A DNA stretch of 26,342 nt from a virus. The number at the start of each line of letters is the position of its first letter. Position 1 is the stretch's first letter. This document shows positions 7,658 through 26,145 of the stretch, in pieces. The DNA lies in IMG/VR virus record IMGVR_UViG_3300042397_001420, positions 1 through 26,342 of that record; one strand, 5' to 3'. A program made the position numbers and the translations under genes. The notes below the pieces were generated by a model that did not search any database, was not told the DNA's origin, and saw only the letters and a list, made by a program, of their open reading frames with translations.

Positions 7658-8977
7658 ATGATACTGGACCATGAACAAGATGCACTAAATCTGCTAAAAA
7701 GAATTGCAGAGCAGAAAACCTTGTTCGTACCAATATTTGCAAGTCCAACGCATCATGTATCGCATAATCCACTGATTGCATTATACATATACAATGAAGC
7801 AGATGAATACATTGTTCCATTCCGACATACTGAACAAGTAAGGGGCTTTCCTGAGCTTGTACCGCAGTTTTTAGCAATGGAGAATATCTTTGTTCATGAC
7901 AAGAAGCAATGGCTTCAAACGGGAGGTAATGCGTCTGTATGGGATGTTAAGACATTGTGGTGGTATACATATGGAGAAGCATATGATGAATCGCATTATC
8001 CAACTGCAGCTCATTCATTTTATTGGAGAAGGCACGGTACAATGCCGCAAGTTAATGCAATTGTTCCTTTGCAACAACATTTAGCAATGTGTCAAAAGAT
8101 CCGGCACTATGCTTGGCCAATGTGTGTGAATGCAGAAATGTCAGCATCATATAAACATTTCAATGAAACCTATCCCAAGGTATTTGCTGCAATTGAACAC
8201 AATGGATTGCAAGTTAATGATTCATTTCGAATGCCAGACATACAACATGCAGGACGAGTTTATTCACAATACAATTATCATACAACCACAGGTCGACCTA
8301 GCAATGCATTTCGAGGATTCAATTTTGCAGCAATGAACAAAGAAGATGGAACTCGTGCAGCATTTTCAAGTAGGTTTGAAGTAGGTGCATTAATAGAAAT
8401 GGACTTTGATTCATATCATGTTAGATTGATTGCTCGATTAGTAGGATATGCATTGCCAGCATCATCTATACATGATTATTTAGGACAATTTTATTTTGGT
8501 GTTAGTGAATTGACAGACGAGCAACGAGATGAAAGCAAGGCAATAACATTCAGATTGTTGTATGGAGGTATTGATTCAGAATTCCTATCAATTCCATTCT
8601 TCCGGCAAGTAAATGATTTCATATACACACTATGGAACAAATGGAAAACAAAACGATACATTGAAACACCCGTTCTTAAACGACGATTAACTGCAGACAC
8701 TTTGAAAAATATGACTGCAAACAAATTGTTCAATTACTACCTACAAGCCACTGAGACCGAAGTGTCTGTTGAAAAACTCCGGCTAGTACAAGACTTATTA
8801 GAACCATATCAAAGTTGCATGATTCTATATACATATGATTCTGTATTATTTGATGTGACAATGCAAGAAGCAAAACAACTTTTACCAGAAATTAAAGCCA
8901 TATTAGAACAAGGCAATTTCCCGGTCAAAACGAAAGTTGGTGATATTTATGATAAAATGAAAACAATCAATATATGA
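7658..8977 (+). CDS. Family-A (Pol I-like) DNA polymerase, proofreading domain degenerate
   Basis: In this 439-aa protein the polymerase core runs from about 170 to the end. T211-GRPSNAFRGFNF matches the TGRLSSxxPNLQN loop; motif A is D249-FDSYHVRLIAR; IHDYLGQFYFG matches the DIHxxxAxxxFG block; motif B/O-helix is R290-x3-K294-x7-Y302-G; motif C is Y393-D394-S395 in place of HDE. The two metal-binding Asp (249, 394) and the Arg/Lys/Phe/Tyr of the O-helix are kept. The steric-gate Glu of motif A (E710 in E. coli) is His254 and the HDE His/Glu are lost. Residues 22-150 look like a 3'-5' exonuclease fold without its DxE metal ligands. Its stop overlaps the next gene by ATGA. It coexists with a family-B replicase at 23626, so repair or recombination-linked synthesis is likelier than bulk replication. 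Confidence 0.82.
   Translation: MILDHEQDALNLLKRIAEQKTLFVPIFASPTHHVSHNPLIALYIYNEADEYIVPFRHTEQVRGFPELVPQFLAMENIFVHDKKQWLQTGGNASVWDVKTLWWYTYGEAYDESHYPTAAHSFYWRRHGTMPQVNAIVPLQQHLAMCQKIRHYAWPMCVNAEMSASYKHFNETYPKVFAAIEHNGLQVNDSFRMPDIQHAGRVYSQYNYHTTTGRPSNAFRGFNFAAMNKEDGTRAAFSSRFEVGALIEMDFDSYHVRLIARLVGYALPASSIHDYLGQFYFGVSELTDEQRDESKAITFRLLYGGIDSEFLSIPFFRQVNDFIYTLWNKWKTKRYIETPVLKRRLTADTLKNMTANKLFNYYLQATETEVSVEKLRLVQDLLEPYQSCMILYTYDSVLFDVTMQEAKQLLPEIKAILEQGNFPVKTKVGDIYDKMKTINI
8944..8952 (+). promoter_or_regulatory. ATATTTATG motif inside the 3' end of the Pol I-like gene
   Basis: This is the only copy of the ATATTTAT core seen inside a coding region. It still lies only 22 nt ahead of the next start codon (8974), the same spacing range as the intergenic copies. 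Confidence 0.25.
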
Positions 8978-10215
8978 ACATAGATTTAATTTTAACGGAG
9001 TGGTGTTACAGATTACCGAAAGGCTATCCGTCAAATTCTAAAGATTACGAAGTATTATACAACGTTTTATTGGAATTTGCTAAAATCACCCCGGACGAAG
9101 CTCGGCTAATTGTTGAACGAGCTCAAGGTCATGTTAAACAAGTTATATCCGAATCAGTACAATTTGATTCTATAGAAAATCAACTATTGATTGATGCAAT
9201 TACATCTGCAGGTAAAGTTGCTGAATTTCGTCAATTTTTAAGTTTACTGCCAACTGAAGCAGATGCAGCAACATTGCAGTTTCTAAATGGCATTCGTGAA
9301 GAACAATGCATACAATTTGCCTCATTGTTATATTCACAAAACGGCGTTGATGAAGAACAATTGAACCGTATAAATTTCCGATCAGGAATAGCTCATGAAT
9401 TGTTCCGGATTGAACCGAAAGGTCTAGGAAAAGGCGAAATCCTATTAGCTACCATGATTAATGGAGCTCAAATTAATGGTGGAGGAACATCGTTTGATAT
9501 GACTGTTGAAAATCGACCATATGAAATTAAAGATTATACAGGTGGCAAAGGCAATGCAAAATCAATTCGATTAGGAACTAAAGGCAGTGTAACTAGATTT
9601 AAGTTTTGGGATGAAATAGTAACCACATTGAAACGCATCGATCAATTACGCGGAACCATGGAAAACCCAAAATTTGATTTCCATAAATATTTTGATCAAT
9701 CATTATTAGATTCAATTGCATATTTAGATGAACGAAGAGCATTTATTTTAGCTGGGAACTTGAACATGAAGGATAAGCAATTCTTGATGCAGTTTTACCG
9801 TGAAGCAAATGCATTGAATTCTGACATACAAGGATATACCAATGTTATCTTGCGAGGACCGAATGCAACACCGGTAGAAATGTCAATTGAACCATTAAAG
9901 AAAAATCCAGATGGCTCATTGATTATCAAACCTATTGAAGACGGTAGCCAGGATATAACATATATCAATGCAGAGTTGAGACGTTTGAAATATGTAAGAA
10001 CTCCAGATGCATTAGATACAGACCTGCAAGAAGCAGTTGATTCTATCATCGGAACAGATTTGCAATTCATTGTTTTCAGAAAAGATCGCATACGAGTTAC
10101 AAGTGATTTTAGATATGTAGTTATCGATGCCGGCAAGATACGAATAATAGAAAAAGCCATTGGTACAGAAAAAATTGATTTAAGTGATACCGAAATAACC
10201 GAGGAATATGAATAG
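8974..10215 (+). CDS. Putative PD-(D/E)XK-type nuclease
   Basis: This 413-aa protein of unassigned family has a PD-(D/E)XK-like centre: E155 in GLGKGEILLA (helix), D175 in GGTSFDM, then E184-I-K186 in YEIKDY. The spacing is that of the restriction-endonuclease fold, with E184 and K186 on the expected second strand. It is followed by basic and aromatic sequence (SVTRFKFWDEI). The first 140 residues are helical and the last 100 unassigned. The ATG overlaps the Pol I-like stop (ATGA), so the two are almost certainly co-translated and may act together at DNA ends or gaps. The GKGE-containing block is one I recall from unannotated phage proteins, so a structural role cannot be excluded. Confidence 0.55.
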   Translation: MNIDLILTEWCYRLPKGYPSNSKDYEVLYNVLLEFAKITPDEARLIVERAQGHVKQVISESVQFDSIENQLLIDAITSAGKVAEFRQFLSLLPTEADAATLQFLNGIREEQCIQFASLLYSQNGVDEEQLNRINFRSGIAHELFRIEPKGLGKGEILLATMINGAQINGGGTSFDMTVENRPYEIKDYTGGKGNAKSIRLGTKGSVTRFKFWDEIVTTLKRIDQLRGTMENPKFDFHKYFDQSLLDSIAYLDERRAFILAGNLNMKDKQFLMQFYREANALNSDIQGYTNVILRGPNATPVEMSIEPLKKNPDGSLIIKPIEDGSQDITYINAELRRLKYVRTPDALDTDLQEAVDSIIGTDLQFIVFRKDRIRVTSDFRYVVIDAGKIRIIEKAIGTEKIDLSDTEITEEYE

Positions 10216-11406: not shown

Positions 11407-12195
11407 ATGGGCTTAAATCTTGATGCCATCAAGGCAAAACTTAATCAGTTGAACAAGACTGATGACAAAAAACAAAATTTGTGGAAACCTGAAGCAGGAA
11501 AATCACGTATTAGAATCGTGCCATACATCCACCGCAAAGACAATCCGTTTTTAGAATTGTATTTTCATTATGACATCGGAAAGAAATCCATGTTGTCGCC
11601 AATTTCATTTGGTAATGCAGATCCAATCGTTGAGTTTGCAGACAAATTAAAGAAAACCGGAGACAAAGATGAGTGGCTAATGGGTCGTAAAATTGAACCG
11701 AAAATGAGAACTTATGTTCCAATCATCGTGCGTGGAAAAGAGTCCGAAGGAGTTAAGTTTTGGGGATTTGGTAAAACAATTTACGCAGAACTTCTTTCAA
11801 TCATTTCAGATGCAGATTATGGTGATATTACGGATCTTATGAATGGTCGTGATATTGATGTAGAGTTTGTTCCAGCAGAAGGTGCAAATTATCCAAAAAC
11901 ATCAATTCGTGTTAAACCGAATACACAACCAGCAACTGAAGATAAAGAGATTGCACAAAAAATCATGAATCAACCTCAAATCACTGATTTATTTCCAGAA
12001 CCAACTTATGACGAATTAGAAGCAGCTCTTAAAGAATGGATGAATCCAGAATCAGCTGACTCAGATGTTGATGAAGATGAAGATGCACCAACAACACCAG
12101 CACCAGCTAAAACTGCAAAGGCCGCAACACCAAGTCCAGCAGCAAGTAAAGTTGAAGATGTATCTGCAGCATTCAATGATTTATTCAATTCATAG
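11407..12195 (+). CDS. 32: gp32-like single-stranded DNA-binding protein
   Basis: This 262-aa protein has the T4 gp32 layout. A short N-terminal region is followed by the OB-fold core at about 25-180 (LWKPEAGKSRIRIVPY, FLELYFHYDIGKK, then RTYVPIIVRGKES..VKFWGFGKTIYAELL). An acidic and Ala/Pro linker runs at about 210-245, and the C-terminus ends VSAAFNDLFNS, like the partner-binding tail of gp32. It coats ssDNA and recruits UvsX, helicase and polymerase. There is no Cys anywhere, so the zinc site of T4 gp32 is missing; SFGNADPIVEF stands where the first zinc cysteines lie in T4. The start is supported by AAAAGGA. It heads the replication operon. Confidence 0.92.
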   Translation: MGLNLDAIKAKLNQLNKTDDKKQNLWKPEAGKSRIRIVPYIHRKDNPFLELYFHYDIGKKSMLSPISFGNADPIVEFADKLKKTGDKDEWLMGRKIEPKMRTYVPIIVRGKESEGVKFWGFGKTIYAELLSIISDADYGDITDLMNGRDIDVEFVPAEGANYPKTSIRVKPNTQPATEDKEIAQKIMNQPQITDLFPEPTYDELEAALKEWMNPESADSDVDEDEDAPTTPAPAKTAKAATPSPAASKVEDVSAAFNDLFNS

Positions 12196-12204
12196 GAGTA
12201 AATC

Positions 12205-13365
12205 ATGGCGAAAACTAAAAGCAAACTAGAAATCGAAGACAGTTTAGCAAACACCTTAGCAGAAAGCATCAACAAACAATTTAAAGGACAAGCTCTTAAA
12301 ACAGCGTTCTTTTTAGATGGTGATGCAGATTCGCCGAGCAATGTTAAAGAATGGATTTCATCTGGCTGTGATTCTTTGGATTTAGCAATATCAAATCGTC
12401 CCCATGGAGGATTCCCGGTAGGCCGAATCACCGAAATCACCGGATTGGAAGCATCTGGTAAATCTTTGTTAGCAGCACATACTTTAGCAGAAACGCAAAA
12501 GAAAGGTGGTTTAGCAGTTTACATTGATACTGAATCAGCAACAAGCAGTGAATTTTTGACGGCAATTGGAGTTGATTTGAAAACCATGTTGTATGTTCCA
12601 TTAGAGACAGTTGAAGAAATTTTTGAAACAATTGAAACTATAGTTGAACAAGTACGTAAATCAGACAAAGATCGTTTAGTTACGATTATTGTGGATTCAA
12701 TCATGGGTGCTTCAACTAAAATTGAAATGTCTGCAGAATATGACAAAGATGGTTATGCAACTAGCAAATCAATTATTCTATCAAAAGCAATGCGTAAAGT
12801 TACCAATTGGATTGCCCGGGAACGAATTTGCCTGATATTTACCAATCAGCTCAGAACCAAAATGGGTGTATCATTTGGAGACCAATGGACAACGGCGGGT
12901 GGTAAGGCAATTCCATTTCATGCATCAGTTCGTCTTCGTTTAAAGAATACCGGAATGATCAAAGCCAAGATAAATGGAGTTGAACAAGTTGTTGGTAGCA
13001 AAACAGAAGTGCAAGTTGTTAAGAACAGAATGGGACCACCACACCGCAAGGTAAATTACGAAATCTACTATGATTCAGGAATTGATAATTATGGTGGTTG
13101 GTTAGAAACAATGAAGAAATTTGATCTAGTGAAACAAGCAGGTGCACATTATACATTGGAAGATGTTGATATCGCTACCGGGGAAACATATGGTGAAATC
13201 AAATTTCAATCAAAAAACTTTCTCGAAAAGGTGATTACAAAACCAGAAGTGAAAGAACGGTTATATCAAAGAATCTGCGATGCTTACATATTCAAATACC
13301 AAGCCGGAATTGATGGCGGAATTGATGATGTGATTATCACTGATGAAGTTTATGATGAAGAATGA
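12205..13365 (+). CDS. uvsX: UvsX RecA-like recombinase
   Basis: This 386-aa protein has a Walker A G80-LEASGKS87, a YIDTESA motif at about 106-112 with the likely catalytic Glu, a Walker B VTIIVDSIMG (D164), and a FTNQLRTK..VSFGDQWTTAGGKA loop region at about 212-235. These mark the UvsX/RecA strand-exchange ATPase. It would load on gp32-coated ssDNA and drive recombination-dependent replication and repair. AGGAG at 12194-12198 gives good spacing to the ATG. It lies 9 nt after gp32 and 3 nt before the FEN-type nuclease. Confidence 0.93.
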   Translation: MAKTKSKLEIEDSLANTLAESINKQFKGQALKTAFFLDGDADSPSNVKEWISSGCDSLDLAISNRPHGGFPVGRITEITGLEASGKSLLAAHTLAETQKKGGLAVYIDTESATSSEFLTAIGVDLKTMLYVPLETVEEIFETIETIVEQVRKSDKDRLVTIIVDSIMGASTKIEMSAEYDKDGYATSKSIILSKAMRKVTNWIARERICLIFTNQLRTKMGVSFGDQWTTAGGKAIPFHASVRLRLKNTGMIKAKINGVEQVVGSKTEVQVVKNRMGPPHRKVNYEIYYDSGIDNYGGWLETMKKFDLVKQAGAHYTLEDVDIATGETYGEIKFQSKNFLEKVITKPEVKERLYQRICDAYIFKYQAGIDGGIDDVIITDEVYDEE

Positions 13366-13368
13366 TAG

Positions 13369-14421
13369 ATGAATAAGTATCAAAGATTATTTAAAGAGTT
13401 ACAACAAGAAAAGAATTTAGGTCCGTCAAAAGTCAATGATCATCTCATGATTTTTGACGGCTTAAATGCTTTCATCAGAGCATTCGGCGCTACTCCAGCA
13501 TATAACGAAGATGGAGATCACATAGGAGGAATTTCTGGTTTCTTGTATTCTATTGGTAAAACAGTTCGAGACTTTCGTCCATCACGTTGCATAATTGTTT
13601 TTGATGGTCGAGGAGGATCTGCAAAACGCAAACGCATATATGGTGATTACAAAGCCAATCGAGCCAATAAAACAAGATTACGGCGTCATGACCACCATGA
13701 CTCAACGATTGAAGAAGAACAAGAATCAATGCGACATCAGTTCAGCAGATTGATTTCTTATCTAGATTATTTGCCGGTAACATTCATGGCTATGGATGGA
13801 ATTGAAGCAGATGATGCAATTGCTTATATTGCTCAAATGTATGAAACGGAGTGCAAAAAGATAACCATAGTTTCAACGGATCGAGATTTTTATCAATTGG
13901 TAGATGATCGAATCCAAGTTTGGTCTCCAATCAAAAAGAAAATGTATGACACTCAAGCAGTTCTAGATGAATTCGGAGTTCATCCTGCAAACATGGTCGT
14001 GTATCGTTCTTTCACAGGAGATGCATCAGATAACATACCAGGTATCAGTGGAATTGGCCCTAAAACCATATTGAAATTAGTTCCCGAATTAGGAGATGCT
14101 ACAGAATTTACACCGGAAATGTTGCTAGAAAAATGTCAACAACATCAAACAGAATCAAAATCATGGCAAAAGATTCTAGATAATTCCCGGATACTTGAAC
14201 AGAATTATCAATTAATGAACATCAAGCTGTTAGACATACCAGCACAGACTGCATCAAAGATTCGAGGCATAATGGAACACCCAATTCCAGAATTGAATCG
14301 AGCAGAATTTCAAAGATTATTCTATGAAGATAAGATGTGGGCTATCATGAAGAATCTACCAGATTGGTTAACTAATACATGGTTATCATTGAATGCATTT
14401 GCAAAACAAACACACAATTGA
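13369..14421 (+). CDS. rnh: RNase H / 5'-3' FEN-type exonuclease
   Basis: This 350-aa protein is a flap-endonuclease-family nuclease, the counterpart of T4 RNase H. Acidic metal ligands appear in order: D30 (MIFDGLN), D79 (IVFDGRGGSAKRK), E146 with D148 and D149 (IEADD), D171 and D173 (STDRDF), D218 and D221 (TGDASDN). The helix-hairpin-helix DNA contact follows as IPGISGIGPKT at 223-233. It removes RNA primers and 5' flaps from lagging-strand fragments. It sits between uvsX and the helicase, consistent with a replication role. It is slightly longer than T4 Rnh (305 aa). No Shine-Dalgarno is seen; translation may be coupled to uvsX. Confidence 0.9.
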   Translation: MNKYQRLFKELQQEKNLGPSKVNDHLMIFDGLNAFIRAFGATPAYNEDGDHIGGISGFLYSIGKTVRDFRPSRCIIVFDGRGGSAKRKRIYGDYKANRANKTRLRRHDHHDSTIEEEQESMRHQFSRLISYLDYLPVTFMAMDGIEADDAIAYIAQMYETECKKITIVSTDRDFYQLVDDRIQVWSPIKKKMYDTQAVLDEFGVHPANMVVYRSFTGDASDNIPGISGIGPKTILKLVPELGDATEFTPEMLLEKCQQHQTESKSWQKILDNSRILEQNYQLMNIKLLDIPAQTASKIRGIMEHPIPELNRAEFQRLFYEDKMWAIMKNLPDWLTNTWLSLNAFAKQTHN

Positions 14422-14456: not shown

Positions 14457-15812
14457 ATGACAGATAAACTAAGTGAATATGGCTACGGCTTTCAAGTAAA
14501 GGTCTTAGCAGCCATGTTTACCGACCGATCATTTTTACAGCAAATTGCTGACATCATTCAACCAGATTATTTTGAATCAGATGCAAATAGTTGGTTGTTG
14601 GAAATCATAATATCACACTTCCGAGAATATAAAACACCTCCTTCGAAAGATGTACTCAAAGTTAAAGTAACGGAGATTGATAATGATATTCTAAAAACTG
14701 CAATACTAGAACAACTTAAAGAAGTATTTCGATTCATGGAATCCGATGACCTTTCTTTTGTTAAAGATGAAATTCTGCGGTTTTGTAAGAATCAAGAAAT
14801 CAAACGAGCCATAATGGATTCAGTAGGTCTTCTTAAAATGGGGAACTATGATGAAATCAAAACCAAGATCGATGGTGCCATGAAAGCGGGTGCCGATACC
14901 AATATTGGATTAGAATACAAATTGAACATTGCAGCACGATATGCAGAAGCATCACGACATACAATTACTACGGGTTGGGATGTTATTGATGATTTAATGG
15001 ATGGCGGATTAGCCCCGGGCGAATTAGGAGTAGTTATGGCTCCTGCTGGTATTGGTAAATCATGGATGCTTATCAACATCGGAGCTAATGCCGTAAAAGC
15101 AGGTCATTGCGTCATACATTACACCTTAGAGCTTAATGAAAACTACGTAGGCCAGCGCTATGACTCCGTTTTAACCGGTATCAACGCACAGACATTAAAG
15201 AACCACCAAGACACTGTAGAAGAACGTATGCACAGTCTTAAAGGTGATTTAGTGGTGAAATATTTTCCAACCAAGTCAGTTGGTATAATGGGTCTTAAGG
15301 CACATTTAGAAAAAACAATCATGCTCGGCAAAACACCAAATTTAATCATAGTAGATTACGGCGACTTGCTCAAAATAAACATGAAAAAGGACAAACATGA
15401 AGCTCTTGAAGAATTATATGAAGAATTACGGGGAATGGCAGGAGAGTATGGTATTCCTGTCTGGACAGCTTCACAAGCAGGTAGGTCAGCATTGGAAGAA
15501 GATGTTATCGAAGCTGACAAAATAGCATCATCATATGGAAAAGTAATGGTTGCAGATTTCTTGATGTCGTTGTCCCGAAAAGTAGAAGACAAGATGTCAG
15601 GAACAGGACGAGGACATGTTATTAAGAATCGTTTTGGCCCAGATGGTATTACGTTGCCTAGTAAAATCAATACCAATAATGGTCAATTTCAATTCTTTGA
15701 ACCAGACACTACGCAAGGCAAACAAACAACTCAAACTATGAAAACTGGTGAAAATTTAATTAAGAAAAGTTTGGCACAAAAGTTTAAAGACTTGGGTGGA
15801 CAATTAGGATAA
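14457..15812 (+). CDS. 41: gp41-like replicative DNA helicase (DnaB family)
   Basis: This 451-aa protein has an N-terminal helical domain (1-150) like DnaB/gp41, then a RecA-type motor. Walker A is A195-PAGIGKS202, a HYTLEL..NYVGQRYDS motif follows at 221-237, Walker B is LIIVDYGDLL (D300), and WTASQAGRSALE comes later (sensor-like). It unwinds the fork ahead of the polymerase as a hexamer and would recruit a primase that is not in this window. It lies 35 nt after rnh and 20 nt before a terminator, so it closes the replication operon. Confidence 0.92.
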   Translation: MTDKLSEYGYGFQVKVLAAMFTDRSFLQQIADIIQPDYFESDANSWLLEIIISHFREYKTPPSKDVLKVKVTEIDNDILKTAILEQLKEVFRFMESDDLSFVKDEILRFCKNQEIKRAIMDSVGLLKMGNYDEIKTKIDGAMKAGADTNIGLEYKLNIAARYAEASRHTITTGWDVIDDLMDGGLAPGELGVVMAPAGIGKSWMLINIGANAVKAGHCVIHYTLELNENYVGQRYDSVLTGINAQTLKNHQDTVEERMHSLKGDLVVKYFPTKSVGIMGLKAHLEKTIMLGKTPNLIIVDYGDLLKINMKKDKHEALEELYEELRGMAGEYGIPVWTASQAGRSALEEDVIEADKIASSYGKVMVADFLMSLSRKVEDKMSGTGRGHVIKNRFGPDGITLPSKINTNNGQFQFFEPDTTQGKQTTQTMKTGENLIKKSLAQKFKDLGGQLG

Positions 15813-17854: not shown

Positions 17855-18070
17855 ATGATACAATCAGCATCAAAAGATTGGATACAACAACAGTTTGTGA
17901 AGGAGTTTAGCAACAAGCTCCTTCCGAGCGATTTCTATTATGAAAATGGACGTCGGGTAATGACCGAATCATATCACCGTAGGCGAGGAACATGCTGCGG
18001 AAATGGTTGTAGACATTGTCCATATGAACCTTCACATAAAAAAGGTGAGAAAACTTTGAAACACCAATAA
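17855..18070 (+). CDS. DUF5522-like small Cys-rich protein
   Basis: This 71-aa protein has the pattern DFYYENGRRVMTESYH then GTCCGNGCRHCPY. C47, C48, C52 and C55 could bind a metal. This is the hallmark of the DUF5522 family of short proteins, which I know chiefly from Bacteroidota genomes; function is unknown. It sits between the reductase micro-ORF and folE. It may have been picked up from the host and is a modest clue to host phylum. Confidence 0.75.
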   Translation: MIQSASKDWIQQQFVKEFSNKLLPSDFYYENGRRVMTESYHRRRGTCCGNGCRHCPYEPSHKKGEKTLKHQ

Positions 18071-18105: not shown

Positions 18106-18771
18106 ATGAAAACAGATGAAAAATTAGGATTAGAAGTACAACAATTTTTAATCAAACATGGTGTAGAAACTCCAATAAAAGAAAATAGATTATCTAACCA
18201 AGAAAAAATTGAAGCAATCCGCGATAAATTTTCGGATATTATGGAATTGTTAGAATTAGATTTATCCGACGATTCATTACAAGATACACCGTCTCGTGTA
18301 GCAAAAATGTATGTTAATGAAATATTTTTTGGATTGGATTATAAAAACTTTCCTAAGGCAACTACCGTTGATAATAAAATGAATTATGACGAAATGGTAA
18401 TTGAACGAAATATCAATGTACAATCTAATTGCGAACATCATTTTGTAATAATAGACGGTGGGTGTCATATTGGTTATATTCCTAAAGATAAAGTATTAGG
18501 ATTAAGTAAATTGAATAGAATTGTTCAGTTCTTCTCAAAACGACCTCAAATACAAGAACGATTAACAGAACAAATTTATTACGCATTATCTTATATATTA
18601 GATACTGAAAATATTGCTGTGATTATAGAAGCAACACATTATTGTGTTAAAAGTAGAGGTATACAAGATGTAAACTCTGATACCGTAACTAGTAAAATGG
18701 GTGGATGTTATAAAACAGATCCGGAAGCTCGTAAAGAATTTTTATCAATTGTTAGTAACCATAAGAAATAA
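18106..18771 (+). CDS. folE: GTP cyclohydrolase I
   Basis: This 221-aa FolE converts GTP to 7,8-dihydroneopterin triphosphate, the first step to both folate and 7-deazaguanines. Visible motifs: DTPSRVAKMY at 60-69, C109-E-H111-H112 (zinc Cys and catalytic His), GYIPKDKVLGLSKLNRIV at 123-140, and HYC180VKSRGI (second zinc Cys). All active-site residues are present. The C-terminal VTSKMGGCYKTDPEARKEF is complete. Directly after its TAA, in the same frame, lies a second, diverged folE-like tail (18772-18849). With QueD-like (19336) and QueE (20142) it makes a 7-carboxy-7-deazaguanine route. Confidence 0.93.
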   Translation: MKTDEKLGLEVQQFLIKHGVETPIKENRLSNQEKIEAIRDKFSDIMELLELDLSDDSLQDTPSRVAKMYVNEIFFGLDYKNFPKATTVDNKMNYDEMVIERNINVQSNCEHHFVIIDGGCHIGYIPKDKVLGLSKLNRIVQFFSKRPQIQERLTEQIYYALSYILDTENIAVIIEATHYCVKSRGIQDVNSDTVTSKMGGCYKTDPEARKEFLSIVSNHKK

Positions 18772-19335: not shown

Positions 19336-19800
19336 ATGGCACGATTTCAATCAACAAAACTATTCGACGGATATTCAACATGTTTTCGTCAATGGCGAGC
19401 AGATGGCACTCATTGCAAATTCCTCCACGGATATGCAGTATCATTCCGAGTATGGTTCGAAGGTGAATTAGATCATCGTAATTGGGTATTTGACTTTGGC
19501 GGTATGAAACGTGCAAAAACATCAATTTCTGGTATGTCCCCAAAAGAGTATTTTGCATTTTTATTGGATCATACTACAATTATAGCACAGGATGATCCTT
19601 ACTTAGAAAATTTTAAACAAATGGATAAAGATGGCATAATCCAACTCAGAATTATGGAAGCTACAGGTTGTGAACGATTTGCCGAATATCTTTACAAAAC
19701 AATAAATGATTTTTTACGAGAAGAAACCGAAGGCAGAGTTAAGGCAACAAAAGTAGAAGTATATGAACACGAAAGAAATTCAGCAAGTTATGAAGAGTGA
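19336..19800 (+). CDS. queD: QueD-like 6-carboxytetrahydropterin synthase, altered zinc site
   Basis: This 154-aa protein belongs to the 6-pyruvoyl/6-carboxytetrahydropterin synthase fold. It aligns to E. coli QueD without gaps over the N-terminal active site: C27 (THC27KF) is the catalytic Cys and H31 of LHGY is kept. The two other zinc ligands differ: H16 becomes C16 (STCFRQW) and H33 becomes Y33. WVFDFGGMK at 50-58 and FLLDHTTI at 75-82 match the substrate and catalytic His blocks. It would convert dihydroneopterin triphosphate to 6-carboxytetrahydropterin for QueE. The variant CFRQWRA/HGY signature looks like a subfamily, so the exact reaction is not certain. The 3' end overlaps the next gene by 38 nt. 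Confidence 0.8.
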   Translation: MARFQSTKLFDGYSTCFRQWRADGTHCKFLHGYAVSFRVWFEGELDHRNWVFDFGGMKRAKTSISGMSPKEYFAFLLDHTTIIAQDDPYLENFKQMDKDGIIQLRIMEATGCERFAEYLYKTINDFLREETEGRVKATKVEVYEHERNSASYEE

Positions 19801-20164
19801 AGATCAATACATATCACTTTATGAGTATTTAGGTAAAGGTTCTGGCGGCACTAATACAGGTCGCGAAGTTACAGCAGAAGCCATTAAACGAGGCGTTGAT
19901 ATTAAATGGAGAACTCTTCCAAAAGAAGCACAGCGACCAGAATATACACAAGTACAGATATATCCATTATCATTTCTAGATGATTATTTTGGTAACACGG
20001 ACAATGCTAATAACATTGAAGTAGATCGAACTCCATTTGTAAGACGTTCTGAATTAATTAAAATACAGAAACGATTAGAAGACTTAGAAGCTAAATTTGC
20101 TGAAGTAATTAAAAAATTAGAAATACCAACTAAATTAGAAGATGACTATGACCTCCCATTCTAA
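19763..20164 (+). CDS. Unknown protein with C-terminal coiled coil
   Basis: This is a 133-aa protein, or 124 aa from an in-frame ATG at 19790 that would shorten the overlap with the QueD-like gene. It has a SLYEYLGKGSGGTNTGREV segment seen in uncharacterised phage proteins, an acidic middle, then a heptad-like Leu/Ile/Lys helix at about 98-125, suggesting oligomerisation. The end overlaps queE by 23 nt. Lying between queD and queE, it may help the deazaguanine pathway, but nothing in its sequence shows this. Confidence 0.6.
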   Translation: MNTKEIQQVMKSEDQYISLYEYLGKGSGGTNTGREVTAEAIKRGVDIKWRTLPKEAQRPEYTQVQIYPLSFLDDYFGNTDNANNIEVDRTPFVRRSELIKIQKRLEDLEAKFAEVIKKLEIPTKLEDDYDLPF

Positions 20165-20930
20165 CCGAATCACAGATTACACAAAAATATTGCCCATAAT
20201 AGAACTTTATAGATGCGTTCAATCAGAAGGTTCTCGATTTGGTCGGCCTACTATTGCAGTTAGAACTACAGGTTGCACTCATCGATGCTTTTTTGGAGAG
20301 GGCGGGTGGTGTGACAGCTGGTATAGTTCAATTCACCCGGAGAAAGGAACATTTACTTTCAATGACATCGTTGCCATATATGATGAAAATCCTCATATCA
20401 AGGAAATGATGTTAACTGGAGGTTCTCCCACAATGCATCCAGCATTGGTAAATGAATTAACACATTTTGCTCATGAAAGAGACATTCTTATCACTATTGA
20501 AACTGAAGGCTCGCATTTTATTGGCACTGATTATCCTATTGGTCTTATCAGTCTTAGTCCTAAGTTTAGCAATAGCATTCCCGTTTTGGGTACACGTACG
20601 CCGCAGGGTAAGGTCACGGATGAATCTATGATTCGCCAACACAATAAATTCCGTATGAATCTTACAGCAATGAAGGAAATGATTGAATTTCATGCAGATT
20701 ATCATTATAAACCAGTATGGGATGGCACTGCAGAGAATCTAGCAGAGATTGAAAAAATACGTCAATTCTTAGATATTCCAAAAGATAAGACATACATTAT
20801 GCCAGCTGGCGACACTAGAGAAGAATTGATTCGAATGTATCCCGTAGTATTTGAAATGTGTGCTGAAAAGGGATACAACATGACAGGAAGGGATCACATA
20901 ATAAGTTACGATACAAAGAGGGGAGTATGA
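20142..20930 (+). CDS. queE: 7-carboxy-7-deazaguanine synthase (radical SAM)
   Basis: This 262-aa QueE homologue has CVQSEGSRFGRPTIAVRTTG leading into the radical SAM cluster loop C45-THR-C49, then seven residues, then C57. That gives Cx3Cx7C rather than the canonical Cx3Cx2C. MLTGGSPTMHP at 94-104 is the GGE-like SAM-binding segment and LITIETEGS at 115-123 follows. It would turn 6-carboxytetrahydropterin into 7-carboxy-7-deazaguanine. Alternative in-frame ATG at 20148. It ends with a 4-nt overlap to the next gene. QueC and a DNA-inserting transglycosylase are not in the window. Confidence 0.88.
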   Translation: MTMTSHSNRITDYTKILPIIELYRCVQSEGSRFGRPTIAVRTTGCTHRCFFGEGGWCDSWYSSIHPEKGTFTFNDIVAIYDENPHIKEMMLTGGSPTMHPALVNELTHFAHERDILITIETEGSHFIGTDYPIGLISLSPKFSNSIPVLGTRTPQGKVTDESMIRQHNKFRMNLTAMKEMIEFHADYHYKPVWDGTAENLAEIEKIRQFLDIPKDKTYIMPAGDTREELIRMYPVVFEMCAEKGYNMTGRDHIISYDTKRGV

Positions 20931-21659: not shown

Positions 21660-21718
21660 ATTGGACAGTAACAACAACCGTTGGCAATATCAACATTAAA
21701 TACGAGATAAAACAATGA
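21656..21718 (+). CDS. Micro-ORF, 20 aa, between ATGA overlaps
   Basis: ATG at 21656 overlaps the preceding TGA, and its own TGA (21716-21718) overlaps the thioredoxin ATG. The product is MNWTVTTTVGNINIKYEIKQ. It is too short for family recognition. The perfect ATGA joints on both sides favour a real translated link that couples thioredoxin to the upstream genes. Confidence 0.35.
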   Translation: MNWTVTTTVGNINIKYEIKQ

Positions 21719-23025: not shown

Positions 23026-23625
23026 ATGATTATCTATAAAACAACAAATTTGATTAACGGTAAATTTTATATAGGACAAGATTCAAAAAATGACCCGTTG
23101 TATTTAGGATCCGGTAAATTATTACATAAAGCAATAAAAAAATACGGAATAGGAAATTTCCGTAAAGATATTTTAGAACATTGTGTATCTAAACGAGAAT
23201 TGAATGAACGAGAAATTTTTTGGATAACGGAATTAAACCCGATATATAATATAGCAAAAGGAGGTTCTGGGGGCGATACGATAACAAATCATCCAGAATA
23301 TGATAAGATTATCGATAAGTTGAAGAAACGTCCAGTACGATATTGGACCGAAGAACAAAAAGAAAATCAGCGCGGAGAAAATAATCCAGCTAAGCGTATT
23401 GATGTTAGAGAAAAAATAAGTAAATCAAAAATTGGAAGACCTAGGTTAGATCAATTAGGAGATCTTAATTCAGCGAAACGACCGGAAGTTAGAGAAAAAA
23501 TCCGAATGCAATTAAAAGGAGTTCCTAAACAAAAAATAAATTGTCCTCATTGTAATAAAGAAGGGCAGCCATCGAATATGTATCGGTGGCATTATGATAA
23601 TTGTAAATTTAAAACGAAAGACTAA
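23026..23625 (+). CDS. GIY-YIG homing endonuclease (Seg-like, free-standing)
   Basis: In this 199-aa protein the GIY-YIG core is at 2-90: MIIYKTTNLINGKFYIGQDS, FRKDILEHC, and a likely catalytic E63 in NEREIFWI. Two NUMOD-like DNA-binding repeats follow (118-132 and 146-160, both x-N-x-AKR-x-x-VREKI). A C-terminal zinc finger has C173, C176, H189 and C193. Such enzymes cut homologous phage genomes lacking them and spread by repair. It sits directly against the family-B polymerase gene (TAA then ATG, no gap), a common target neighbourhood. Its GGT/GAT/AAT-rich, SD-preceded sequence looks foreign next to the polymerase but this was not measured. Confidence 0.88.
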   Translation: MIIYKTTNLINGKFYIGQDSKNDPLYLGSGKLLHKAIKKYGIGNFRKDILEHCVSKRELNEREIFWITELNPIYNIAKGGSGGDTITNHPEYDKIIDKLKKRPVRYWTEEQKENQRGENNPAKRIDVREKISKSKIGRPRLDQLGDLNSAKRPEVREKIRMQLKGVPKQKINCPHCNKEGQPSNMYRWHYDNCKFKTKD

Positions 23626-26145
23626 ATGTATCAATCAATAGGTTATGATAAGAAAAATGGCGTAATGCATGTTTGGGACTCTGAATTAGGACATCAAAAA
23701 TTTCCATTCAAACCATACGCATATTTGCCAGATGATGCAGGAAAATACATTTCATTAGATGGAACTCGCCTAAAACGTGTAGAAGGCAATCACAAAGATA
23801 ATCCAACGGCGTATGAATCTGACATCAATGAAGAAATGCGAACTCTTATTGATTTATATTATGAATCAGATGAACCTTCAAAAGGACATAGAGATTTATT
23901 TTTTGATATTGAAACAGAACGAGATGAAAACGGATATTCAACTGCCGAAGAAGCTCGTGCACGTATTACATCAATTGCATATTATGATAAAGCAGGACAA
24001 AATCGCCGGGTATTGCTTCTTGATGAAGAACGCAGATTAAACAATGCAGGATTTGAAGGAGATGGCTATGTAGTTGAAATATTCAATACAGAAGCTGAAA
24101 TGCTAACACGCTTTATTAATGCATTTGCTGCAATTCAACCAACCGTTATATCCGGATGGAACACGGACAATTATGATATTCCATATCTTGTTAATCGCAT
24201 CAAAAAGATATTAGGTGCACAGGCACTTAAAAAGCTTTCTCCTGCAGGTATCGTTGAATGGAGTAAAAGCAGAGAACGTTACAAGATATTTGGTGTATCT
24301 AGTTTAGATTACTTGACACTATATAAAAAGTTTACGTATACAGAACTTCCGAATTACCGATTAGATACTGTAGCCAAATTTGAATTAGGTCGCGGAAAAG
24401 TAGAATATGACGGTGATTTGAACCAATTGTTTGCAACCGATATTCACAAGTTTATTGAATACAACATGGTTGACGTTAATTTGGTTTATGATTTAGATGA
24501 TAAACTTCAATTGATACCATTAGCACGGACTATATGTCATAAAGGACATGTTCCATATGAAGATGTGTATTATGCATCTAAATACCTAGATGGTGCTGCA
24601 ATTGTTGATTTGAAACGCAATGGCCTAGTTGCTCCGAATAAAAGATTCAGATTCATTGAAGAAGAAACAGAAGCTGATGCATTAGCAGGTGCATATGTAA
24701 TGCCACCAGTACCAGGCCTATATAAATGGATCTATGACTTAGATTTAACGTCACTGTATCCTAGCATCATCATGAGTTTGAATATTTCTCCAGAAACAAA
24801 AATAGGAGTTATTCAGAATTGGGATGAAGAATGCTTGCTACGGTCAGAAGCCACTCAAGTAACATTCGCAGATGGTACTTATGCTCAAGACATTCGAACA
24901 TGGCTAACGGATAATGCATATACAGTTGCATCCAATGGTGCAGTATATCGAACAGACATTAAAGGCTTCTTACCGGCCATTCTAGAAAAATGGTTTGATG
25001 AACGTGTTGAATTTAAGGATAAACGTGATGAATATGAAGTAGGAACCGAAATGTATAAGTTTTATGATGCATTGCAGTTAACACAAAAGGTATTGCTCAA
25101 TTCATTTTATGGAGTATTGGGACTTAAAACATTCCGCTTCCATGACTTAGATAATGCAGGTGCAATTACTGCAACAGGTCAAAGTGTAATCAAATTTTCT
25201 GCAAAGGTTATCAATGCACATTATGCAAAAGAAACTGGTAAGGATCATTTCATCAACGCAACCGGAATGCCAGCAGAGTTTGCATTCTATACAGATACGG
25301 ATTCAACCTTTTGTTCTTCGTTGCCTTTGATTCAAGCACGATATCCGGATTTTGATGAAACAGATGAACAATTCATGATAGACCAAACCAATGCCATTGC
25401 ATCTGAAGTTCAACGCAAGGTTAATGCCATGTATGACATATATGCAGTGCGCTTTCACAATACAGCAACACATCGTTGGCAGATCAAACAAGAATACATT
25501 GCAAAATCTGGTTTATGGATTGCTAAGAAGCGTTATGCACAATGGGTTATTTACAAAGAAGGCAAACCTACGGATAAATTAGATATCAAAGGATTGGACG
25601 TTGTTAGATCAAGTTTCCCGGAAGATTTCAAAAAGATAATGAAAGAAACATTGTGGTATATTCTCAAAGAAAAGGATAAAACTGCAACATCGGATATGAT
25701 TCATAAATTCAAATCTGGATTGAAAAATTCTGAAGTACTCAATGTTATGAAGAATTCCGGAGTCAAAGAAATATCCAAATTCATCAAAGGAAGAAAACCA
25801 TTTACAGGATACATATCAGGAACTCCCGCACACGTTAAAGCAGCAATCAATTTCAATGACTTTTTACATATGTATGGCATCAAAGACATTACTCCTATTC
25901 AAAATGGAGAAAAAGTAAAATGGGCATACCTATCAGATAATCCATATGGAATGGAAACAATGGCTCTTCGAGGATATCAAGATCCAGCGCAAACCGTAGA
26001 ATTTGTTACACAATACATTGATCGCAATAAAATCTTTGAAAAGGAATTGAAAAATAAACTTGATGATTTTTATGCTGCAATGAATTGGGGTGCATTTCCT
26101 GAAAATAATAATGTAGCACGTTTCTTTTCATTCGGAAGTAAATGA
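23626..26145 (+). CDS. 43: gp43-like family-B replicative DNA polymerase
   Basis: In this 839-aa protein, ExoI is D94-I-E96 (LFFDIETER), ExoII SGWNTDNYDIPYL (D181/D184 region), ExoIII YNMVDVNLVYD (D283). Polymerase motif A is D373-LTSLYPSII, motif B K488-VLLNSFYGVLG, motif C Y555-TDTDS. All catalytic Asp are present, so it should replicate and proofread. The C-terminus ARFFSFGSK looks like a sliding-clamp-binding tail. It is about 60 residues shorter than T4 gp43 (898). The ATG directly follows the homing endonuclease stop and lacks a Shine-Dalgarno sequence, so expression may depend on reading through from the endonuclease. Confidence 0.94.
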   Translation: MYQSIGYDKKNGVMHVWDSELGHQKFPFKPYAYLPDDAGKYISLDGTRLKRVEGNHKDNPTAYESDINEEMRTLIDLYYESDEPSKGHRDLFFDIETERDENGYSTAEEARARITSIAYYDKAGQNRRVLLLDEERRLNNAGFEGDGYVVEIFNTEAEMLTRFINAFAAIQPTVISGWNTDNYDIPYLVNRIKKILGAQALKKLSPAGIVEWSKSRERYKIFGVSSLDYLTLYKKFTYTELPNYRLDTVAKFELGRGKVEYDGDLNQLFATDIHKFIEYNMVDVNLVYDLDDKLQLIPLARTICHKGHVPYEDVYYASKYLDGAAIVDLKRNGLVAPNKRFRFIEEETEADALAGAYVMPPVPGLYKWIYDLDLTSLYPSIIMSLNISPETKIGVIQNWDEECLLRSEATQVTFADGTYAQDIRTWLTDNAYTVASNGAVYRTDIKGFLPAILEKWFDERVEFKDKRDEYEVGTEMYKFYDALQLTQKVLLNSFYGVLGLKTFRFHDLDNAGAITATGQSVIKFSAKVINAHYAKETGKDHFINATGMPAEFAFYTDTDSTFCSSLPLIQARYPDFDETDEQFMIDQTNAIASEVQRKVNAMYDIYAVRFHNTATHRWQIKQEYIAKSGLWIAKKRYAQWVIYKEGKPTDKLDIKGLDVVRSSFPEDFKKIMKETLWYILKEKDKTATSDMIHKFKSGLKNSEVLNVMKNSGVKEISKFIKGRKPFTGYISGTPAHVKAAINFNDFLHMYGIKDITPIQNGEKVKWAYLSDNPYGMETMALRGYQDPAQTVEFVTQYIDRNKIFEKELKNKLDDFYAAMNWGAFPENNNVARFFSFGSK

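Follow-up and report, generated by a model that had tools for sequence, protein, structure and literature searches.

The window analysed here, 26,342 nt of DNA at positions 1-26,342 of IMG/VR virus record IMGVR_UViG_3300042397_001420, encodes mini-PolA, a small uncharacterised cousin of Pol I that is carried by many large T4-like phages beside their main polymerase. Its main anomaly is that, as judged from alignments, the Pol I thumb has been deleted, so that the protein is predicted to be made up of palm, fingers and an exonuclease-like base that is inert. With a probability of about 0.45, we favour the reading that mini-PolA is an accessory, distributive, non-proofreading family-A polymerase whose main job would be short-patch synthesis or gap filling after a 5'-3' exonuclease. 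Features of the window are collected in Table 1.

Table 1. Mini-PolA, its parts and the neighbouring genes in the window.
Feature	Position	Strand	Basis
Mini-PolA, thumbless family-A DNA polymerase (predicted), 439 aa	7658..8977	+	Pfam DNA_pol_A, predicted fold, Z 28.7 vs Bst Pol I
N-domain (residues 1-137) resembling a 3'-5' exonuclease but degenerate, without the catalytic carboxylates; H33, H57 and P137 invariant in the family	7658..8068	+	Alignments
Residues 188-199, the junction at which the Pol I thumb (about E. coli residues 549-652) is absent	8219..8254	+	Alignments
Motif A, MDFDSYH region: D249 (=D705), D251, H254 (=E710 steric gate, replaced)	8393..8428	+	Family alignment
Motif B / O-helix: R290, K294, F298, Y302, G303	8525..8566	+	Family and reference alignments
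N359-E366 (=E. coli N845, Q849 region)	8732..8755	+	Family and reference alignments
Motif C, YTYDS: Y391, Y393 (=H881), D394 (=D882), S395 (=E883)	8828..8842	+	Alignments
Putative PD-(D/E)XK nuclease with N-terminal EWxYRxxxGYP module; overlaps mini-PolA stop	8974..10215	+	Conserved columns, 109 homologs
Partner protein of mini-PolA, 128 aa	10215..10601	+	Co-occurrence with mini-PolA
gp32-like single-strand DNA-binding protein	11407..12195	+	phrog_1192 2.8e-16; conserved order
UvsX/RecA recombinase	12205..13365	+	PF00154 2.9e-53
5'-3' exonuclease (FEN / T4 RNase H-like)	13369..14421	+	PF02739 1.2e-33
gp41-like replicative helicase	14457..15812	+	phrog_19 1.3e-73
gp43-like family-B replicase (PolB)	23626..26145	+	phrog_262 1.5e-180; PF00136 1.3e-36

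The initial annotation, made from the letters alone, had described the gene as a Pol I-like family-A polymerase, and profile searches bear this out: the DNA_pol_A profile (PF00476) scores 43.1 bits on residues 197-425 against a curated cut-off of 34.3, and phrog_17 'DNA polymerase' matches at 2e-15. Scores against the bacterial Pol I equivalogs TIGR00593 and PRK05755 (19.4 and 26.2 bits) fall far short of their cut-offs of 600 and 720. Queried with a profile of 60 relatives, the best solved relative is Klenow (E 4e-7), and a global profile alignment with E. coli Pol I and phage PolA reaches 99.9% (E 3.3e-35). Comparison of a predicted structure with Klenow and a phylogeny had been proposed as checks. 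The AF2 model (pLDDT 92.6, pTM 0.90) matches Klenow in Foldseek with E 4e-19 and Bst Pol I ternary complexes in VIA with Z 28.7, over residues 1-435 with 406 aligned; the core tree parts the family from nine reference PolA with support 1.00. The likeness to the bacterial Pol I large fragment (Klenow, Bst) thus lies in the predicted fold over residues 1-435 and in motifs A, B and C, whereas mini-PolA differs in having no thumb and no exonuclease ligands, a His at the steric gate and a Tyr in place of H881. T7 gp5 and the SPO1/Twort-type PolA are also phage family-A enzymes, but they are full-size replicases with a thumb region and a Glu gate, and mini-PolA is parted from them with support 1.00. 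Every one of the best 50 BFVD matches is a longer PolA, of at least 517 aa. Values of dN/dS against ten homologs are 0.12-0.20, indicating purifying selection.

IMG/VR holds hundreds of mini-PolA relatives, which fall mainly into a window-like, an immuto-like and a Mel-JY01-like group; additional groups were found via a linked gene. Matches among 84,980 species genomes are limited to two MAG contigs, and the family is thus almost exclusively viral. In a set of 50,697 phage records, matches spanning at least 80% of mini-PolA come from just six, namely four records of immuto, one of Microcystis phage Mel-JY01 and one of an uncultured phage of 484 kb. The LR756508 protein used as a query gave no confirmed loci. 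The 'DNA polymerase family A' of Flavobacterium phage immuto (immuto35A_1, 441 aa) belongs to the same family, is about 30% identical and lies in the same cluster; thumb loss is not mentioned in its record. Among open-licence papers we found no description of the mini-PolA family or of thumbless or second phage family-A polymerases.

In a family alignment of 220 members of 398-452 aa, D249, D394, H254, Y302, Y391 and Y393 show no variation, and the invariant positions further include H33, H57, P137, E180, Y205, R213, P214, N216, N222, Y360 and Q363. D249 and D394, which the initial annotation had named as intact metal-binding residues, align with D705 and D882 of E. coli Pol I; it is the alignment to Pol I complexes that implies a common metal site for the two. 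The O-helix had likewise been called intact. Its mapping is correct (R290=R754, K294=K758, F298=F762, Y302=Y766), but R290 is replaced by Tyr in 149 of the 220 members. In motif C, where HDE had been seen to read YDS, the mapping also stands, and position 393 is Tyr throughout the family and His in all nine reference PolA. The last residue, on the other hand, is ordinary: HDS is common in phage PolA, and the position of S395 is Ala or Ser in the family and Ser in five of the nine references. An extra Asp two residues past D249 (D251) is kept in 214/220 members and might substitute for the lost E883 carboxylate.

With both Asp and the O-helix Lys, Phe and Tyr kept, catalysis, which had been judged plausible at the outset, is predicted from the sequence. 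Mini-PolA could instead be a structural or regulatory replisome subunit of polymerase descent with little or no catalysis, as the lost thumb, the altered gate and the non-conserved equivalents of R754 and E883 might suggest. We consider this very unlikely: both metal Asp and the equivalents of K758, Y766, Q849 and R668 hardly vary even between very divergent members, as would be expected of an active enzyme.

The thumb is a standard element of right-hand polymerases; it is usual in family A and falls outside the matched part of the Pfam DNA_pol_A core. Two conserved anchors, E180 and Y205, are 15-33 residues apart in the mini-PolA family, compared with 118-228 in reference PolA (118 in E. coli). 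Nothing in mini-PolA corresponds to E. coli residues 562-649, and the absent stretch is one that, from established Pol I anatomy, we take to be the thumb. One candidate for a T7-style processivity factor, a thioredoxin-like gene at 21715, was rejected because mini-PolA offers no thumb loop to which its product could attach. The N-terminal domain was rightly described as exonuclease-like and devoid of its DxE ligands, hence non-proofreading, since D355, E357 and D501 of E. coli Pol I correspond to P25, F27 and I148. The 5'-3' exonuclease domain is not in the mini-PolA chain and is encoded by a separate gene of the window. By Pol I anatomy, loss of both thumb and proofreading would imply short, distributive synthesis.

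A second gene is tied to mini-PolA. The 128-aa partner is confined to the same six phage records, out of 50,697, that have full-length mini-PolA, and it is present at every mini-PolA locus with sufficient downstream sequence. When the partner alone was used for scanning, at least 600 matches were obtained, and among the matches listed mini-PolA lies upstream on the same strand in each of the 45 loci that have 3 kb or more of upstream sequence; the pair is therefore common in environmental viruses. The partner had no convincing family in Pfam, PHROG or NCBIfam. Its AF2 model is confident (pLDDT 93), but Foldseek gave nothing below E 0.1 and VIA at most Z 6.1 over half of the model, and a RegA-like or other known fold was dropped on these grounds. 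Fusions of mini-PolA to the partner, the exonuclease or the single-strand DNA-binding protein, sought as a clue to contacts, were absent from 298 mini-PolA ORFs. The partner is probably a cofactor dedicated to bringing the thumbless enzyme to DNA or steadying it there. A stricter version, in which the two proteins form an obligate two-subunit polymerase and the partner replaces the thumb in trans, providing grip and processivity, seems unlikely to us; if true, it would be a new family-A polymerase architecture, spread in a large, mostly uncultured phage group.

The gene between mini-PolA and the partner had no match in Pfam, PHROG or NCBIfam. The initial annotation had called it a putative nuclease, and the E...D...(E/D)xK signature of the PD-(D/E)XK type is indeed recognisable in its homologs (E155 in 106, D175 in 108, E184 in 89 and K186 in 106 of 109). 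Its N-terminal EWxYRxxxGYP module is more conserved than the remaining protein, with E9, W10, G17 and P19 present in 108 of 109 homologs; it recurs in an immuto protein away from the cluster (L249:46488-47549) and may be a docking element. The gene is frequent among window-like phages and in many other groups. It was seen in only two Mel-like loci, and the immuto relative lies elsewhere in the genome.

In all groups of these very divergent phages, the genes follow one conserved order on one strand: mini-PolA, other genes, partner, gp32, UvsX, 5'-3' exonuclease and gp41. This setting, the thumb deletion and the linked partner had all escaped the initial annotation. A gp43-like PolB in the same phage had been recognised correctly. 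PolB is present in 15 of the 30 carrier records tested, comprising window-like and Mel-like phages, and in none of ten immuto-like records; metagenomic records are mostly fragments, so the absence of PolB or QueC from a single record is weak evidence. The immuto phage differs from the window phage in that a second, full-size PolA is present and PolB was not found, and 8 of the 10 immuto-clade records have such a second family-A frame of 778-796 aa. A full-size family-A polymerase has apparently taken the place of the family-B replicase in this clade, with the T4-like cluster kept (MW353176.1 37854-40187, L248). Since the immuto clade still has mini-PolA, mini-PolA stays when the replicase changes.

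A full-size replicase of one family or the other accompanies mini-PolA in most large carrier records, and on this ground a sole-replicase role for mini-PolA was rejected. A DnaG-type primase is encoded separately in 12 of 15 large carrier records, and priming was likewise rejected as the main role. Extension past lesions or mismatches, with a short takeover from the replicase, would suit an enzyme that has no proofreading site and a weaker grip on DNA and that works beside a second replicase. A damage-tolerance polymerase of this kind is nevertheless improbable, as mini-PolA is kept beside core replication genes in all groups.

Several other genes of the window can be named. The PolB start codon is immediately preceded by the gene of a GIY-YIG homing endonuclease, group I intron type (TIGR01453, 1.5e-17; 23026-23625). 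PolB is in at least two open frames in G023 and G026 (the records of loci L227 and L169) and in LR756508.1, perhaps because it is interrupted by an intron or intein or because the gene is truly split. The window also encodes a DUF5522 protein (17855-18070, 3e-17) and a phage GroES (21887-22279, 1.8e-18).

Glu710 is the steric gate of Pol I (PMC13228545), and the initial annotation had noted that it is replaced by H254. The two positions do align, and the residue is His in 220/220 mini-PolA and Glu in 9/9 reference PolA; a Glu here is usual for family A without strictly defining it. This replacement could relax sugar selection, so that ribonucleotides or modified dNTPs would be inserted, for priming or for modified DNA, and the window does carry FolE, QueD and QueE (18106-18771, 19336-19800 and 20142-20930). 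A role with unusual nucleotides is nonetheless of low probability. His is bulky like Glu, Tyr302 and Phe298 are retained, and the primase is a separate gene. QueC reaches the cut-off in just 3 of 18 large carrier genomes, all of the immuto clade, and it was not found in six large window-like relatives, in which the deazaguanine pathway may stop at 7-carboxy-7-deazaguanine. Immuto itself has, by annotation, DpdA, a base exchanger that acts after replication. With QueC missing from most carriers, a deazaguanine-specific polymerase is not supported. Of the roles first proposed, the modified-nucleotide polymerase is thus weakened, while short-patch synthesis or gap filling still gives the best reading.

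For gap filling, the nearest known system is the lagging-strand repair set of T4 (gp43, RNase H and gp32). The window phage shares with T4 gp32, UvsX, the 5'-3' exonuclease, gp41 and a gp43-like PolB, whereas T4 itself has no polymerase of the mini-PolA type. After RNase H has acted in T4, either gp43 or host Pol I fills the gap, and RNase H itself can be replaced by host Pol I (PMC3012046). Set against this, the position of mini-PolA near the exonuclease and gp32 makes gap filler its most likely role. A separate replicase would copy the genome, while mini-PolA would work within the phage replication and recombination module. The 5'-3' exonuclease would strip RNA primers or resect ends on gp32-coated DNA, and mini-PolA, helped by the partner to hold DNA, would fill the resulting gaps and leave them ready for sealing by ligase. 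Two functions of Pol I, gap filling and 5'-3' exonuclease, would then be split over separate genes of one cluster.

Some points speak against gap filling. A thumbless enzyme may bind primer-template poorly unless a partner lends it grip, gp43-like enzymes would, by analogy with T4, be able to fill gaps alone, and the fold of the partner offers no functional clue. Moreover, UvsX is part of the cluster, so synthesis during recombination fits the neighbourhood about equally well. The strongest rival, though rather unlikely, is a recombination polymerase that briefly extends the invading 3' end in UvsX D-loops while the PD-(D/E)XK protein trims ends, a role that would belong to double-strand-break repair or to recombination-dependent replication. 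UvsX, gp32, gp41 and the putative nuclease are all neighbours of mini-PolA in the window. Against this rival, immuto-clade UvsX is only 24% identical to that of the window, yet mini-PolA and its partner are kept, and the nuclease gene lies elsewhere in immuto and was seen in only two loci of Mel-like phages.

A widespread and strongly conserved family-A enzyme with no thumb, an invariant gate His and a constant partner would reveal how small a part of Pol I suffices for templated synthesis. The gap-filling reading suggests that in a whole lineage of T4-like phages, as in bacteria, DNA synthesis is shared by a replicase and a polymerase dedicated to short patches and is not left to gp43 alone. 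The immuto clade, which has cultured members and in which the replicase was apparently exchanged and the mini-PolA module kept, renders the question testable.
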